Shown: positions 1,477 through 55,698 of the stretch, piece by piece | How the letters are laid out: every line of letters begins with the position of its first letter | Position numbering within the stretch: position 1 is the first letter of the stretch | NCBI RefSeq assembly: GCF_003841465.1 | Contig: NZ_REFZ01000010.1 | Coordinates: 1-64,000, forward strand | DNA from: Natrarchaeobius oligotrophus | GTDB lineage: Archaea; Halobacteriota; Halobacteria; Halobacteriales; Natrialbaceae | Direction of reading: 5' to 3' | Length of the DNA stretch: 64,000 bases | Translations under genes and position numbers: made by a program | The notes under the pieces: model-generated | What the model was told of the DNA's origin: nothing | The model's input: only the letters and a program-made list of their open reading frames with translations | Database searches by the model: none

Positions 1477-2538
1477 TCATTCCGTGTTTTCGATGATCGC
1501 GTCGACGTCCAGCCACGTCACGAGCGTCGTCTGTTCGTCGACGTTCTTTTTCACGATCCCGCGGACGAACTCGTGTTGGTGATCGGCGTTCGTGTCCATC
1601 ACGGTTCCCGTCTCGTCGATCTGTGACTCCCGATACGTCACCGCCTGTGAGACGTCCGTGACGCGGATGCCGAGTTTCTGTTTGTCGTCGTCGCGTTTCA
1701 ACACGACGATGTACTGGTCGTCGGACAGTTCGTTTCGCTCGACGTCGAGCATCGTCGTCGGGTCCAGGACGCCCGTGATCTCGCCGCGGAGGTCGGTCAC
1801 GCCGTCGATCGCCTCCGGCCCGCGGGGAAACCGGGTGATGTCTTTCATCTCGACGATGGCGCTGATCCGGTCGATCTCGATCGCGTACCGGGCGTCGTTC
1901 AGCGAGAACTCGAGCATCTGTACCGTGTTCTCTCTGTCCTGCGTGGAGTGCAACAGGGTGTTGCCCTGCTCGAACACCTCGCCCTCGCGTCCGATCGCGG
2001 CCCGTCCCTGGTCGTCGCTCGCCCGCTCGATCGCGGAGGCGTCGACCGTCGGTTCCGCGCCCATCATCTCGGTCGTGCTAACCATCGCCGACGTGTCGGC
2101 GATCGCCCCCTGCAACGCCGGATCGACGGTTTGTTGCCCGTCGCCGGCCGCGGGTACAGCGTCGTCGCCCGGGCTCGCCGCGGACTCGCCCTCGCCCTCG
2201 CCGCTCGAGGCGGGATCGATCCCGTCCGGGCCGTCTCCGCGCTCGGTTCGACCGTCGCCCGTCGATCCGTCGTTCACCGACTCGCCGCCTCCGTTCGCCG
2301 ATCCGTCTCCGTCGCCCGCTGACTCGTCGTCCTCGTCCGCCGTTCGGGTCGATTCGTCGGCCCGCTCGTCTCTCGCTTCGGTCGCCGACTCGCCGTCGGT
2401 TGTGGCGTCCGTGCCGTCGTCCGTGGACGATTCGTCGTCGCCTGTCCCGTCGGCGTTCGCCTCGTCGGTTCGACCGTCACGGTCGCCCGCGGTTCGGTTT
2501 CGCAGGTCTCGAAGTCGTCGTGCTCTGTCGTCGGTCAT
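1477..2538 (-). CDS. cheW: CheW coupling protein with ~200-residue disordered acidic N-terminus
   Basis: Chemotaxis coupling protein of 353 residues. Residues ~205-350 are a CheW fold (VQMLEFSLNDARYAIEID, the GVTDLRGEITGVLD core, a C-terminal VTWLDVDAII). The first ~200 residues are low-complexity Asp/Ser/Gly/Thr and predicted disordered, whereas typical CheW proteins are about 140-180 residues. The frame stays open far upstream, but the real start is ATG 2538, which overlaps the stop of the ParA gene in an ATGA arrangement. The two are therefore cotranscribed and translationally coupled. The pairing recalls the Vibrio ParC/ParP system, in which a ParA-like ATPase works with a CheW-like (AIF) protein to place chemoreceptor arrays. 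That functional parallel is inference. Confidence 0.93.
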   Translation of the reverse strand: MTDDRARRLRDLRNRTAGDRDGRTDEANADGTGDDESSTDDGTDATTDGESATEARDERADESTRTADEDDESAGDGDGSANGGGESVNDGSTGDGRTERGDGPDGIDPASSGEGEGESAASPGDDAVPAAGDGQQTVDPALQGAIADTSAMVSTTEMMGAEPTVDASAIERASDDQGRAAIGREGEVFEQGNTLLHSTQDRENTVQMLEFSLNDARYAIEIDRISAIVEMKDITRFPRGPEAIDGVTDLRGEITGVLDPTTMLDVERNELSDDQYIVVLKRDDDKQKLGIRVTDVSQAVTYRESQIDETGTVMDTNADHQHEFVRGIVKKNVDEQTTLVTWLDVDAIIENTE

Positions 2539-3323
2539 GCCGGCACCTCCTGTGTGCTGAACTGCTCGTCGAGCTCTTCGGCCATCGCGACGAACACGTC
2601 GCGCATGTCGACGTCTTCCTCGATGGCGAACAGTGACTGCCCGTCGGCGAACGCACGCTGGAGCGCAACGCGCTTGCGGACCCGGTAGATGGGGACGTCG
2701 GGTAACGCGTCCTCGAACCACGCGAGCATCTCGTCGTCCTGTCGCGTCGTCTCGATACGGTTTGCCACTAGCGCAACCGGATCGATCTCGACGTCGTGAT
2801 CCATCTCCAGCGAGCCGACGTAATCGAACAGCAGCTCGAGCGACCGCTTGCTCGTCGGCTCCGTAAGCGCGGGAATTACGAGATTCTCGGTCGCACACAG
2901 TGCGTTGTCGGTGATCACGCCCAGGTGGGGCGGACAGTCGACGATTACGTACTCGTAGTCGCGCTCGAGGCGATCGAGAAGCGAATCGAGACGCGTCTCC
3001 GACTCCGGTTGCTGGGCGAGCGACGACGCGGCCGCGTTCATGTCGATGTTGCTCGCGACGACGTCCATCTCGGCGTGTGAGTAGACGATCTCCTCGAGCG
3101 GTATCGCCGTCGGATCGACGAGCGCGTCGAGCAGCGTCGGCGGCTCGTCGTCGTACGCCTCGAGCAAGCCCAGCCCTTCGGTCGCGTTGCCCTGTGGGTC
3201 GAGATCGACGAACAGAACGTCCCGGCCGAGTTCGTTCAACGCCCCGGCCAGGTTGATCGCCACGGTCGTCTTTCCGACGCCACCTTTCTGGTTCGTTACA
3301 CACAGCCGAGCGGGTCCCGCCAT
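2535..3323 (-). CDS. parA: ParA/MinD-family ATPase coupled to CheW
   Basis: Deviant Walker ATPase of 262 residues. The N-terminal P-loop is NQKGGVGKTT; VDLDPQGNATEGLG and a YVIVDCPPHLG switch segment follow, the usual ParA/Soj order. It starts at ATG 3323; minus-strand TATA-like GTTATGTAG lies at 3349-3357, consistent with a leaderless transcript that also carries cheW. ParA-type ATPases form nucleotide-dependent gradients or patches that position DNA or protein assemblies. Because its only partner here is a chemotaxis coupling protein, array positioning is more likely than DNA partition. No ParB-like gene is adjacent. It is a different protein from the ParA encoded near 55 kb. Confidence 0.93.
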   Translation of the reverse strand: MAGPARLCVTNQKGGVGKTTVAINLAGALNELGRDVLFVDLDPQGNATEGLGLLEAYDDEPPTLLDALVDPTAIPLEEIVYSHAEMDVVASNIDMNAAASSLAQQPESETRLDSLLDRLERDYEYVIVDCPPHLGVITDNALCATENLVIPALTEPTSKRSLELLFDYVGSLEMDHDVEIDPVALVANRIETTRQDDEMLAWFEDALPDVPIYRVRKRVALQRAFADGQSLFAIEEDVDMRDVFVAMAEELDEQFSTQEVPA

Positions 3324-3443: not shown

Positions 3444-3803
3444 ATGGCAGTGAACGTCTTGATCGTCGATACTTCCGAGGCGACCCGCGAGGTCCTTCGG
3501 GAGGCGATCTCCGAGGAGTTTCGCGTCGTCGCGGAGGCCGCCGACGGTGCGGAGGCCATCGAGATCGCCGAGACCACCCACGTCGACGTCGTCGTCATGG
3601 ACCTCGCGATGCCTGGGGTCGACGGAATCGAAGCAACTGCCACGATCACGGAGCTACACCCGGACGTCAGCGTCGTCTTCTGTACGAATGCTACACAACG
3701 AGAAACGATGAGATCCGCAATCGAGGCCGGCGGTGATGGCTACGTTACGAAGCCGTTCGAGAACAGTACGATTCAGGACGCGATACGCGACGCGATCTCC
3801 TGA
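3444..3803 (+). CDS. cheY: Chemotaxis response regulator CheY
   Basis: Single receiver domain, 119 residues, phosphorylated by CheA and read out by CheF at the archaellum. The phospho-acceptor Asp lies in VVVMDLAMPG, the conserved Thr in FCTNATQ and the Lys in GYVTKPF. The first acidic-pocket motif reads LIVDTSE rather than the usual VDDS, so the second Mg-binding Asp is Thr (codon ACT). Start ATG 3444 is preferred over an upstream in-frame codon because TATA TCTTTATG (3411-3418) lies about 28 nt before it. Its TGA overlaps the cheB ATG (TGATG at 3801-3805), so it heads the cheY-cheB-cheA unit. Confidence 0.95.
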   Translation: MAVNVLIVDTSEATREVLREAISEEFRVVAEAADGAEAIEIAETTHVDVVVMDLAMPGVDGIEATATITELHPDVSVVFCTNATQRETMRSAIEAGGDGYVTKPFENSTIQDAIRDAIS

Positions 3804-4876
3804 TGGTCCGAGCCGTAATCGCGGACGACTCCGCAGTGATGCGCGAAACCCTCGGGAAGATTCTCGAGGACGGCGGAATCGACGTCGTCGCCCGAGCGAA
3901 AGACGGCCTCGAGGCCGTCGAGGCCATCGATCGGTACGAACCCGACGTCGCGACCATCGACATCCAGATGCCCGAACTCACCGGCCACGAGGTGATCGAA
4001 CGCGTCATGGACGAGAATCCGACGCCGATGCTGGTCATCAGTTCGCACACGACTCGCAACGCCGACGCCACGTTCGAGGCGCTCGAGGCCGGTGCGGTCG
4101 ACTTCATCGCGAAACCGTCGGGCGACAACTCGGTCGACATCTGGACCAGACAGGACGAGATCGTCGATCGCGTTCGCGCGGTCGCCGACGCGGACGTGAC
4201 GGGAATCGACGACGGTCGCGAGCGATCGACGCGGGATCGAGCGCCGACGCGGGATCGAACGCCGACGATCGACGTCGGCGACGAGTTTCCCGGCGAGCCG
4301 ACGCTCGTCATCGGCGCATCGACCGGCGGCCCGCGCGTCGTAGAGCGGGTGTTGTCCGAACTTCCCGAACGAGCGGGACTACGAATTCTGGTGGTACAAC
4401 ACATGGCTGATCACTACACGAAACGGTTTGCGAAGCGTCTCGACGAACGAACAGCGTACGACATCCGCGAGGCGACCGACGGCGATACGGTCGGCCCGGG
4501 CGAGGGCGTCCTGGCGAAGGGCGGATACCACCTCGACGTGACCGGCTTCGCCGACGGTCACCTCGCGGTGGCCAACGACGACGGCCCAAAGCGCCACAAC
4601 GTCCGACCCGCAATCGACGTCACGATGGAAGCGACAGCGGAGCGAGTCACCGGTAACCTCGTCGGCGTCATCCTCACCGGGATGGGTGCCGACGGCGCGG
4701 CCGGCCTCGAGTCGATCAAGGAGGCGGGCGGGAAGGCGATCGTTCAGGACGAAGAAACGTCGCGCGTCTACGGCATGCCGAAGGTGGCAACGGAGCGCGT
4801 CGACGTCGACATGATCCTGCCGGGCGATCGGATCGCAGAGGGGATCACCAACGCGTTCACGGGGTGGTCCGCGTGA
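3803..4876 (+). CDS. cheB: Chemotaxis protein-glutamate methylesterase CheB
   Basis: Demethylates, and probably deamidates, transducer glutamate/glutamine residues to reset adaptation. Length 357 residues. The receiver domain (1-~120) has IADDSAVMR and the phosphorylatable Asp in TIDIQMPEL, with an intact DD pair, unlike the cheY just upstream. A short charged linker follows. The C-terminal esterase domain carries the catalytic triad: Ser in GASTGG, His in VVQHM and Asp in GMGADG. The linker (residues ~135-160) has a near-perfect DNA repeat encoding RDRAPT/RDRTPT. The end overlaps the cheA start in a GTGA arrangement. Confidence 0.97.
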   Translation: MVRAVIADDSAVMRETLGKILEDGGIDVVARAKDGLEAVEAIDRYEPDVATIDIQMPELTGHEVIERVMDENPTPMLVISSHTTRNADATFEALEAGAVDFIAKPSGDNSVDIWTRQDEIVDRVRAVADADVTGIDDGRERSTRDRAPTRDRTPTIDVGDEFPGEPTLVIGASTGGPRVVERVLSELPERAGLRILVVQHMADHYTKRFAKRLDERTAYDIREATDGDTVGPGEGVLAKGGYHLDVTGFADGHLAVANDDGPKRHNVRPAIDVTMEATAERVTGNLVGVILTGMGADGAAGLESIKEAGGKAIVQDEETSRVYGMPKVATERVDVDMILPGDRIAEGITNAFTGWSA

Positions 4877-6897
4877 GCGACGTGACGAACACCTTCGTCC
4901 AGGAGAGCCAGGAGGACATCCAGCAGCTCAACAACGCGCTGTTGGACCTCGAAAACGCCGCCGACCCGGAGAACTCGGAGTCGATCGAGACGGTCTTTCG
5001 GGTCGCACACAACCTGAAAGGCAACTTCGGCGTTATGGGCTACACGGACGCGAGCAACATCGCCCACGCCGTCGAGGACCTGCTCGATTGCATCAGATCC
5101 GGCGAACTCGCCGTGACGGGCGATCGGATGGACCTGATCTTCAGCGGCGTCGACCTCCTCGATCAGATGGTCCAGGAGATCTCGGAGACGGGTGAGACGG
5201 AGACGAACCCCGAGGCGACGATCGAGGAGATTCGCGCCTCGATCGAGGGCGAGTCCGAGAGCGCCGACGACGGCGACGAGGCGGCCGACGCGGACGACGG
5301 GGCGGCTGACGTCGACGCTGCCGTTCCTCTCGCCGACGTCGCGGCCGACCTCGGCGACGACGTCGACCTCGACGAGGCGGAACTCTACCGAACGACCGTC
5401 GAGTTCGAACCGACCGGATCGGAACACGTCGACGCGATGTTCGTCATCGACGCCATCGAAGACGAGTACGACCTTCTCCGGCTCGATCCCGACGGCGACG
5501 TGATCGAGGACGGCGAGTTCGACGCGACGTTCGACGCCTACGTTCTGACCGACCCGGACGTCACCGCCGACGACGTCGCGACGTTCTACGAGAACAACCG
5601 ATACGTCGAAGACAGCGCCATCGAGCACATCACCGACGACGTCGCAGCCGAGCGCTCGCAGGCGGCGGAAGAAGCCAGCAGCTCGGACGGTTCGGCCGCC
5701 GACGCGGATGGCGATTCGCCGGCGTCGTCCGAGTCGGCGTTCGCCCACGGCAGTCAGGAGGTCGAATCGATTCGGGTCGACGTCGAGCAGGTCGACCAGC
5801 TCTACAACCAGGTCGAAGAGATGGTGACCAGTCGGATCAAACTCCGCAAGATCATCGAGGAAAACCAGCTGGTCGAAGCCGAGGACGAACTCGAGGAACA
5901 CGGCAAGATCACGGCGAGTCTGCAGGATACCGTTCTCGAGATCCGGCTGGTGCCCCTGAAGAAGATCGTCGGCAACTTCCCGCGGGTCGTCCGCGACCTC
6001 TCCCGAAAGCAAGAAAAGGAGATCGACTTCCAGATGGACGGCGTCGACATCGAGATGGATCGCTCGATTCTGAACGAGCTGGGCGATCCGCTGATGCACC
6101 TCATTCGAAACGCCGTCGACCACGGCATCGAGCCGCCCGAAGAGCGCGAACGAAAGGGGAAACCGCGCGAGGGCACGATCAAGCTCATCGGCGAGCGCGA
6201 CCGCGATCGCGTCTCGGTCACGGTCCAGGACGACGGTCGCGGACTCGAGGTCGAAGAGATCCGCGAGAAGGCGATCGACCAGGGTGTCATCACCGAAGAG
6301 GAGGGTCGCGTCCTCGACGACTCCGAGGTGTACGATCTCATCTTCCACCCCGGTTTCTCGACGACCGAGGAGGTTACGGAAGTCAGCGGTCGCGGCGTCG
6401 GGATGGACGTCGTCAATCAGGTCGTCCGCGGCGTCGACGGCTCGATCAACGTCGAGAGCGAGCCCGGAGCCGGAACCAGCGTGACGCTAATGTTACCGGT
6501 CAGCGTCGCGATCGTCCGCGTCCTGTTCGTCACGGTCGGCGACGAGACGTACGGCATCCCGATCAAGAACATCGACGAGATCTCCGAACTCGAGGATCTC
6601 ACCGTCGAGTCGGTCGAAGACCGACCGACGATCACCCACGACGAACGCATCTACCCGCTGCTCTCGCTCGGCGACCGACTCGACGTTCCGGACGTTTCCC
6701 CCGCCGAAGACGACATGGTCGTCCGCATCAAAGACACCGTTCGACAGGTGTGCATCCGCTGTTCGGACGTCGTCGGCCAGGAGGAGGTCGTGATCAAACC
6801 CTTCGAGGGCGTCCTGAGCGGTGCGCCCGGAATCAGCGGCGCGTCGGTTCTCGGCGAGGGTGAAGTCGTGATGATCCTCGACGTGGATACGCTGTGA
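4873..6897 (+). CDS. cheA: Chemotaxis histidine kinase CheA
   Basis: Central sensor kinase, 674 residues from GTG 4873 (GTGA overlap with cheB; another GTG at 4864 is in frame). P1/HPt domain: phosphorylated His46 in AHNLKG. An acidic linker leads to a P2-like domain (~155-255) and a second linker. P3 dimerisation helices follow (VEQVDQLYNQVEEM). The P4 ATPase has the N box LIRNAVDHGIEPPEER, the G1 box QDDGRGLEVEEI and the G2 box GRGVGMDVV. The C-terminal P5/CheW-like domain has LFVTVGDETYGIPIKNI and ends in MILDVDTL. It phosphorylates CheY and CheB. All landmark residues are present. Confidence 0.97.
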   Translation: MSDVTNTFVQESQEDIQQLNNALLDLENAADPENSESIETVFRVAHNLKGNFGVMGYTDASNIAHAVEDLLDCIRSGELAVTGDRMDLIFSGVDLLDQMVQEISETGETETNPEATIEEIRASIEGESESADDGDEAADADDGAADVDAAVPLADVAADLGDDVDLDEAELYRTTVEFEPTGSEHVDAMFVIDAIEDEYDLLRLDPDGDVIEDGEFDATFDAYVLTDPDVTADDVATFYENNRYVEDSAIEHITDDVAAERSQAAEEASSSDGSAADADGDSPASSESAFAHGSQEVESIRVDVEQVDQLYNQVEEMVTSRIKLRKIIEENQLVEAEDELEEHGKITASLQDTVLEIRLVPLKKIVGNFPRVVRDLSRKQEKEIDFQMDGVDIEMDRSILNELGDPLMHLIRNAVDHGIEPPEERERKGKPREGTIKLIGERDRDRVSVTVQDDGRGLEVEEIREKAIDQGVITEEEGRVLDDSEVYDLIFHPGFSTTEEVTEVSGRGVGMDVVNQVVRGVDGSINVESEPGAGTSVTLMLPVSVAIVRVLFVTVGDETYGIPIKNIDEISELEDLTVESVEDRPTITHDERIYPLLSLGDRLDVPDVSPAEDDMVVRIKDTVRQVCIRCSDVVGQEEVVIKPFEGVLSGAPGISGASVLGEGEVVMILDVDTL

Positions 6898-54430: not shown

Positions 54431-54814
54431 TTACCGCGTCCGCGTTTCGCGAACCCGTTCGGGTACTTCGTCGATGTGGTCGATCGCGACCTTCAAAATC
54501 GCGTCGTGGAGCTCGCGCGTTTCCTCGTCGCGAATCCCCAACCGACGAAGGGACGGAACCACCCGAATACCCAGTTCGTCCTCGAGTTCGTCCCACGTCT
54601 CCCCGCGGGCGTACAGCGGCCGCTGGCGAACCTCGCTGTACTCGAATCCGGGACCGGCGTCCGCCGGCGAATCGGGCTCGGCCGAGGCCGGTTCGACCGA
54701 TTGCGGCTGGTCGGGCTCCGTGTCGACACGCTCGCTCGCGGTCGCCTCGCCGTCGGTCGTCGATTCCGCGACCGTCTCGTCGCCCTCGAGGTCGTCGAAC
54801 GGATTGTCGCTCAT
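54431..54814 (-). CDS. Small acidic partner of the ParA ATPase
   Basis: Protein of 127 residues. Residues 1-~75 are acidic and disordered (Asp/Glu/Ser/Thr/Pro). Residues ~80-127 are helical: QRPLYARGETWDELEDELGI, then RRLGIRDEETRELHDAILKVAIDHIDEVP. Its ATG overlaps the ParA stop (ATGA at 54814-54811). By position it should be the ParA partner (ParB/ParG-like role), but I see no recognisable DNA-binding motif. The similar layout of the CheW-ParA pair, ATPase first and a protein with a disordered acidic N-terminus second, is noteworthy. Confidence 0.8.
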   Translation of the reverse strand: MSDNPFDDLEGDETVAESTTDGEATASERVDTEPDQPQSVEPASAEPDSPADAGPGFEYSEVRQRPLYARGETWDELEDELGIRVVPSLRRLGIRDEETRELHDAILKVAIDHIDEVPERVRETRTR

Positions 54815-55698
54815 CGATCGATTCCTCCGTTTGCGACGATCCCTGCGAGCTCTCGATAGCAGGCGATCTGGTCGTTGTCGGGTGCGTAGTCCTGTAGCGG
54901 CTGGTCGTGTTGCAGCGATCGCGAGAGCGCCGACCGGTGTCGAATTCCCGGCTTCGGGGGGTCGATTTCTCCCGCGTCGATCGCGTCGAACTCGTTCGCG
55001 GTAATGCGAGCGAAGTCGGGGACGACCTCCTGAAGCGCCTGGCCGTCGTTGACCTCGTAGGTCGCCGTGTTGAGATTCTCGAGCAGCTCCCGGTCTTCGG
55101 TCTGCTGGTCGATCCGGTCCGACAGTTTGTTCGGGACGACCGAGAGAACGTCGACGTCGATGTACTCGCGCGCGGGCTCGATCAGGCGCTCCATCGTTCG
55201 CTTGTAGCCGCCGATCGCACTCGAGCCGGGCTCGAGCGGGATCAGCACGTTCCCCGTCGCGACCAGCGCGTTGTTGTTGAGCATCCCCGGATACGCCGGA
55301 CAGTCGAAGACGATGTACCGGTACCGATCACCGAGCAGGGGGTCGACGATCTTCGATTTCACTCGCGCGGATCCCTGCATCGCTCCGGCTAGATCGTTCT
55401 CGACGTCCTCGAGCGTATCCGACGACGGAAGGAGGTCGAAGCCGTACTCGGTCGTCCGGATGAGATCCGTCGGCGTCGCGTCTCCATCAAGGATGACGTT
55501 TCGCAGATTGACGTCCCCCTGGTAGGCGTCCTCGAATCCGAGGCCGTTCGTCGCGTGTCCGTTCGGGTCGAGGTCGGCAAACAACGTTTCTCCCCGCTCG
55601 GCGAGCTGGCGCGCGAGGTTCATCGACGTCGTCGACTTTCCGACGCCGCCTTTCAGTATGACGACGCTTACGGCGCGTGGTTCGTTCGTGTCGGTCAT
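54811..55698 (-). CDS. parA: ParA-family partition ATPase
   Basis: Protein of 295 residues. Deviant Walker A ILKGGVGKSTTSMNLARQLA, then FADLDPNGHATNGLG and YIVFDCPAYPGMLNNNAL. It is closer to plasmid and chromosome partition ATPases of haloarchaea than to the CheW-linked copy at 2.5-3.3 kb. The upstream region (55699-55925) has several copies of ACCTATT/AATAGGT, one overlapping its own promoter (55729-55735). Together with the small acidic partner this forms a possible partition cassette. Confidence 0.93.
   Translation of the reverse strand: MTDTNEPRAVSVVILKGGVGKSTTSMNLARQLAERGETLFADLDPNGHATNGLGFEDAYQGDVNLRNVILDGDATPTDLIRTTEYGFDLLPSSDTLEDVENDLAGAMQGSARVKSKIVDPLLGDRYRYIVFDCPAYPGMLNNNALVATGNVLIPLEPGSSAIGGYKRTMERLIEPAREYIDVDVLSVVPNKLSDRIDQQTEDRELLENLNTATYEVNDGQALQEVVPDFARITANEFDAIDAGEIDPPKPGIRHRSALSRSLQHDQPLQDYAPDNDQIACYRELAGIVANGGIDR

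Follow-up and report, generated by a model that had tools for sequence, protein, structure and literature searches.

The DNA analyzed here is a window of 64,000 nucleotides from the haloarchaeon Natrarchaeobius oligotrophus (family Natrialbaceae; contig NZ_REFZ01000010.1, positions 1 to 64,000). The locus under study encodes a ParA-type ATPase followed by a CheW protein with a long N-terminal arm, and its features are as follows, with positions in the window:

2535..3323, reverse strand: parA, a ParA/Soj-type deviant Walker A ATPase of 262 aa with an ATG start
3264..3293, reverse strand: deviant Walker A motif NQKGGVGKTT, ParA residues 11-20, invariant in 14 relatives
2649..2681, reverse strand: basic block VRKRVALQRAF, ParA residues 215-225, conserved and common to plasmid ParAs
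2535..2538, reverse strand: ATGA overlap of the parA stop and cheW start, indicative of translational coupling
1477..2538, reverse strand: cheW with a long N-terminal arm, 353 aa
2491..2538, reverse strand: basic N-terminal peptide MTDDRARRLRDLRNRT, CheW residues 1-16, the proposed ParA ATPase-activating peptide
1924..2490, reverse strand: acidic low-complexity linker, CheW residues 17-205, fast evolving
2029..2109, reverse strand: semi-conserved stretch GAIADTS..EPTVDASA within the linker, CheW residues 144-170
1483..1923, reverse strand: CheW domain, class I, CheW residues 206-352, assigned from Pfam CheW and the CheW tree
3444..6897, forward strand: cheY-cheB-cheA, the core of the main che cluster, divergent to parA-cheW

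The parA product matches Pfam AAA_31 at 4e-42, and its KGGVGKTT, DLDPQGN, and VDCPP motifs are invariant or nearly so among 14 relatives, which fits the ParA/Soj branch of the ParA/MinD ATPases. Among solved structures, ParA and Soj proteins, not MinD, are its best relatives, and an amphipathic C-terminal helix of the MinD type is not visible in the sequence. The VRKRVALQRAF block is a candidate surface for non-specific DNA binding, an activity proposed for this ParA from the conserved basic block only. A second ATPase of the ParA/MinD family, with 98.7 bits to AAA_31 and no link to CheW, lies at 54811-55698 (reverse strand) of the window.

The parA gene ends in GCATGA, which contains the cheW start, giving an overlap of four bases and bearing out the ATGA overlap reported in the first-pass annotation of this DNA. 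The match to Pfam CheW spans residues 207-351 and is complete (positions 1-136 of 138, 83 bits, 2e-23), and the frame of the arm is coding, with a GC3 of 0.85 against 0.88 in the CheW domain. The arm had been described as acidic and of low complexity, which holds for ~190 residues (residues 21-196 contain 27% D/E and 5% K/R) but not for residues 1-16, which are net basic with six Arg and three Asp. These 16 residues and a short stretch ahead of the domain are the only conserved parts of the arm. The linker has a median length of 197 residues in 61 proteins, and 89% of its differing codon pairs are non-synonymous in 22 Natrialbaceae-type genes. Acidic linkers are usual in halophiles. With acidity general among the linkers of haloarchaea and the present linker free to diverge, the acidity of the arm was rejected as evidence and the earlier emphasis on it appears misplaced, the informative part being the basic N-terminal peptide. 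AlphaFold gave poor models of ParA and CheW (pLDDT 47 and 37, from shallow alignments), with an N-terminal helix at residues 3-17 the sole part scoring 61-71.

The CheW arm opens with the conserved basic peptide MTDDRARRLRDLRNR, for which the consensus is given as MTDDRAxR(I/L)RxxRNR; the Natrialbaceae form is MTDDRARR(I/L)RxxRNR and the Haloarculaceae form RMxRAxRIRxxREGxR. The motif R[AS].[RK][ILMV][RKS]..R, sought within the first 40 residues, was found in 61 of 61 parA-linked (armed) CheWs, and the strict motif in 16 of 26 partner proteins encoded beside plasmid parA genes. Two of 1622 background ORFs contained it; one of these is a repeat copy of an armed CheW, and with such repeat copies of the partners set aside a single match is left. 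CheWs not adjoining parA (n = 17) have neither peptide nor arm, and in the genome of the window the start-anchored peptide pattern has one match, the cheW at 1477-2538. At R5, A6, R8, R13, and R15, the differing codon pairs comprise zero non-synonymous and 120-167 synonymous (231 pairs from the 22 Natrialbaceae-type genes), which shows that the peptide is under selection. A short conserved basic N-terminal peptide that precedes an interaction domain is the layout of ParA activators of the ParB/ParG/PomX/TlpT type, as defined previously (PMC7993993). The arms at two loci with family code f4 (L119 and L121, genomes G174 and G124) carry three copies of RAxR(I/L)xxxR, which may confer a higher avidity for ParA.

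The parA-cheW pair is present in 54 of the 242 genomes of the class, 18 from Natrialbaceae and 36 from Haloarculaceae/f4, and takes two forms, one in Natrialbaceae and the other in Haloarculaceae together with one genus of the Haloferacaceae group. ParA of the Natrialbaceae type was found in 18 of the 242 genomes and is coupled to CheW in all of them. The 18 Natrialbaceae loci of the named-genome scan have ParA identities of 65-79%, and the armed CheW stands at -4 in all 17 that are sufficiently long, the contig of the eighteenth (L019) stopping 36 residues into CheW. When 295 genomes of the phylum were searched for the Natrialbaceae type, a single match, at 226 bits, fell outside the order. 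The second ParA type, of ~300 aa with an insertion of ~40 aa, occurs in 37 genomes (family codes f3, which is Haloarculaceae, f4, represented by one genus, and f8) and is CheW-coupled in 36. Across 60 non-redundant typed ParA-CheW loci, the spacing is exactly -4 in 57, -8 in two, and +10 in one; the overlap is far beyond chance. The first-pass annotation had made its proposal depend on ParA-CheW adjacency being kept beyond close relatives, and with coupled pairs in Natrialbaceae and in f3, f4, and f8, the adjacency is not confined to these.

The nearest other ParAs are found on haloarchaeal plasmids, with 121 PLSDB records at identities of up to 63%, including Halobacterium pHS4 and pNRC100/200 and Haloarcula pNG300, whilst bacterial matches reach at most 43% identity and cover part of the protein. 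Directly downstream of the plasmid parA, and in most cases overlapping it by the same four bases, lies a gene for a "hypothetical protein" of 110-220 aa. This protein is laid out as a peptide (MSDDRADRLRRRR-like or MTDDRAERMRQRR, for example), an acidic linker, and a C-terminal domain with the pattern VGTYMYLP...EKNRHFYPLLV..GLE. This end domain corresponds to the PHROG families phrog_29165/26668, to which no function is assigned there, and Pfam and PDB searches with it returned no match. A putative centromere-binding role for the partner is assumed from its position after parA, its end domain having no Pfam or PDB relative. Members of this widespread family, annotated as hypothetical, include those at L214 3563-4048, L111 2292-2666, and L110 2289-2744, among others, and at L253 (G195:C37) the ParA partner differs from the usual linker arrangement in having extra, apparently folded segments between its N- and C-terminus. 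The parA-cheW locus has the same arrangement as the plasmid operons, namely a ParA of the plasmid group and then an overlapping partner with an N-terminal peptide, and the two differ in that the plasmid partner ends in an uncharacterized, presumed centromere-binding domain rather than CheW and that the operons sit on plasmids or secondary replicons. The phrog_29165/26668 domain is absent from the CheW at 1477-2538, with CheW in its place. Given that the peptide and the ATGA overlap are common to the plasmid partners, the armed CheW would be a plasmid-partition partner whose C-terminal domain has been replaced by CheW. A further 19 ParA loci yielded no third type of cargo.

In the ParA tree, the CheW-linked ParAs of Natrialbaceae form one clade (100/100), and those of the Haloarculaceae type form another together with the plasmid-type loci L214 and L217 (100/95). 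Constraining all CheW-linked ParAs together was rejected (p 2e-8) but was not rejected when L214 was included (p 0.15), and the ParA tree alone, which therefore leaves the number of origins unsettled, is compatible with one capture of CheW followed by reversion in L214. At this locus the ParA is of the Haloarculaceae type, the genome has no CheW match, and the plasmid-type partner carries a Haloarculaceae-type peptide, with a mean score of 51 against Haloarculaceae-type CheWs and no score above 35 against the other plasmid partners. The CheW domains are more informative on the number of origins, since the arm in Natrialbaceae is joined to a class I CheW, of one lineage with the che-cluster CheWs in families f2 and f6, and that in Haloarculaceae to a class II CheW, of one lineage with those in f3 and f4. 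A single clade of armed CheWs was rejected (AU p 0.007), and with domains from different lineages, the fusion of peptide to CheW apparently took place on at least two occasions. The best explanation from these sequences is that the module arose when, in a haloarchaeal plasmid operon of parA and its partner, cheW took the place of the 3' domain, at least two times independently; the direction from plasmid to chromosome is based on the spread of the plasmid types and the CheW phylogeny, the ParA tree not being well rooted.

The main che cluster that diverges from parA-cheW comprises cheY-cheB-cheA-...-cheD and cheF, and CheA is present in every surveyed genome that has a parA-linked CheW. Most Natrialbaceae without the pair are left with just a second che system, whose CheA is long; the published account of this system in Natrialba magadii makes no mention of ParA (PMC3403918). 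Two additional CheWs accompany a long CheA frame in a second che system observed at G000:C8:122635-129195. In Haloarculaceae, 16 of the f3 loci examined have the pair and a gene for an ArlD/E-domain protein arranged back to back, and about half also lie near salactin; examples of the ArlD/E-domain gene divergent to parA-cheW, often followed by salactin, are L117 3019-4751 and L125 2938-4715. Salactin is an actin homolog that forms filaments extending from the poles (PMC10746226), and the pair may in these genomes possibly lie in a cell-pole or motility neighborhood. Near-identical MCP genes are found at both ends of the contig (window 1-400 and G000:C10:151808-154370), with a second, unarmed CheW just past them, as in L211. 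The ends share an exact overlap of 278 bases, which does not show contig C10 to be circular, because the overlap falls in near-identical receptor genes.

We consider it likely that parA-cheW is a plasmid-type partition module that has been retargeted to chemoreceptor arrays, in which the peptide would stimulate ParA whilst CheW docks. CheW would serve as the cargo adaptor, its C-terminal domain docking into the receptor/CheA array and its long disordered linker extending from the array to display the peptide, possibly spanning the distance from array to nucleoid. ParA-ATP would coat the nucleoid non-specifically, and the basic peptide would contact the ParA-ATP dimer and stimulate ATP hydrolysis, as the N-termini of ParB, ParG, and PomX do. 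Array-bound peptides may then release ParA locally, so that the arrays travel, spread, or are sorted to daughter cells; were the peptide to trigger hydrolysis by nucleoid-bound ParA in this way, arrays would be moved and shared out as plasmids are. Modularity is a known trait of ParA/MinD ATPase activators, for which a short basic N-terminal stretch attached to an interaction domain is sufficient (PMC7993993), and the armed CheW has exactly this layout.

The first-pass annotation had likened the pair to ParC/ParP of Vibrio, and the coupling of a ParA-type ATPase to a CheW adaptor with a long linker does hold across families; its logic, however, appears nearer to PpfA/TlpT and plasmid partition, with derivation from haloarchaeal plasmids. 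True homology to ParC/ParP, in which ParA would occupy a polar landmark and the array would be tethered to the pole by the CheW arm, is unlikely, although the layout is the same, with a ParA-like ATPase and a protein with a CheW-like domain, a long linker, and an N-terminal ATPase-binding part (PMC5706961), and the arrays of Haloferax are polar (PMC6509185). ParP differs in having an AIF domain nearer to CheA-P5, a proline-rich linker, and an N-terminal interaction domain (PMC5706961), and the Vibrio system has the polar anchor HubP, whereas no polar landmark was identified here. Tethering to the pole is nonetheless conceivable as an outcome. Homology is also not favored by the plasmid-borne nature of the nearest ParAs, nor by the CheW domain, which groups with haloarchaeal CheWs in a tree built without ParP or CheA-P5 rows; these findings point to a separate origin for the haloarchaeal pair, with ParC/ParP being known by description.

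The resemblance to PpfA/TlpT of Rhodobacter sphaeroides lies in a ParA-like ATPase that positions chemoreceptor clusters and in the basic N-terminus of TlpT, thought to stimulate the ATPase, as proposed for the armed CheW (PMC5706961, PMC7993993). TlpT, however, is a chemoreceptor of the cytoplasmic cluster rather than a CheW, and is bacterial. The haloarchaeal pair was assigned to neither system, its ParA being of haloarchaeal plasmid origin and its adaptor a CheW of haloarchaea, the separation from the Vibrio and Rhodobacter systems being drawn from published descriptions rather than direct sequence comparison. It is best read as an independent haloarchaeal invention that would work like ParC/ParP, and more like PpfA/TlpT. 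MinD4 and MinD2 of Haloferax are also ATPases of the ParA/MinD superfamily that affect the position of arrays and the archaellum in archaea (PMC11588486), but they belong to the MinD family, are not coupled to CheW, and have another genomic setting.

The chief mechanistic rival to the proposed role of the peptide is that the basic CheW tail itself binds DNA and parks arrays on the nucleoid, with ParA only regulatory, as for FrzCD of Myxococcus, whose basic N-terminal tail attaches it to the nucleoid (PMC5716589). This is disfavored, and highly improbable in our estimate, given the strict link of the tail to parA; the tail is found only beside parA, is common to the partners of plasmid ParAs, and has the form of a short peptide conserved in sequence, not that of a loose basic run. 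That the operon is fortuitous, with a parA for chromosome or plasmid maintenance merely co-transcribed with cheW, would suit a ParA of the plasmid-partition family, but deserves very little credence when the pairing arose with two CheW lineages and the peptide is fused to CheW in all cases. Equally slight is the chance that ParA acts on the arm to switch CheW in or out of the array and so regulates CheA signaling rather than position, as we know of no ParA system that does so. Halobacterium CheW does bind arrays dynamically (PMC3579733), but a layout with an activating peptide belongs to positioning systems (PMC7993993).

Retargeting of a partition module remains the preferred reading. A chemotaxis scaffold of haloarchaea has apparently gained the short activating tail of a plasmid-partition system and its ATPase at least two times, which suggests that these cells may move or distribute their sensory arrays as plasmids are distributed. 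We lean, with somewhat less assurance, toward a plasmid-partition operon having been turned into an array-partition system on at least two occasions, by exchange of the DNA-binding end for CheW and retention of the ATPase and peptide, which would make the positioning ParA- rather than MinD-based and the peptide a transferable "ParA handle." No description of the haloarchaeal ParA-CheW pair was found in the open-access literature, subscription papers lying outside the search. The placement of archaeal arrays has so far been linked only to MinD proteins, with cargo adaptors not known, and the peptide of ~15 residues offers a directly testable molecular handle on the placement and inheritance of these arrays. 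A partner is also identified for a widespread, unannotated plasmid-partition system of haloarchaea, and the pair would provide a sequence-level case of an activating peptide that has moved between cargo domains in evolution, something argued earlier from unrelated bacterial proteins.
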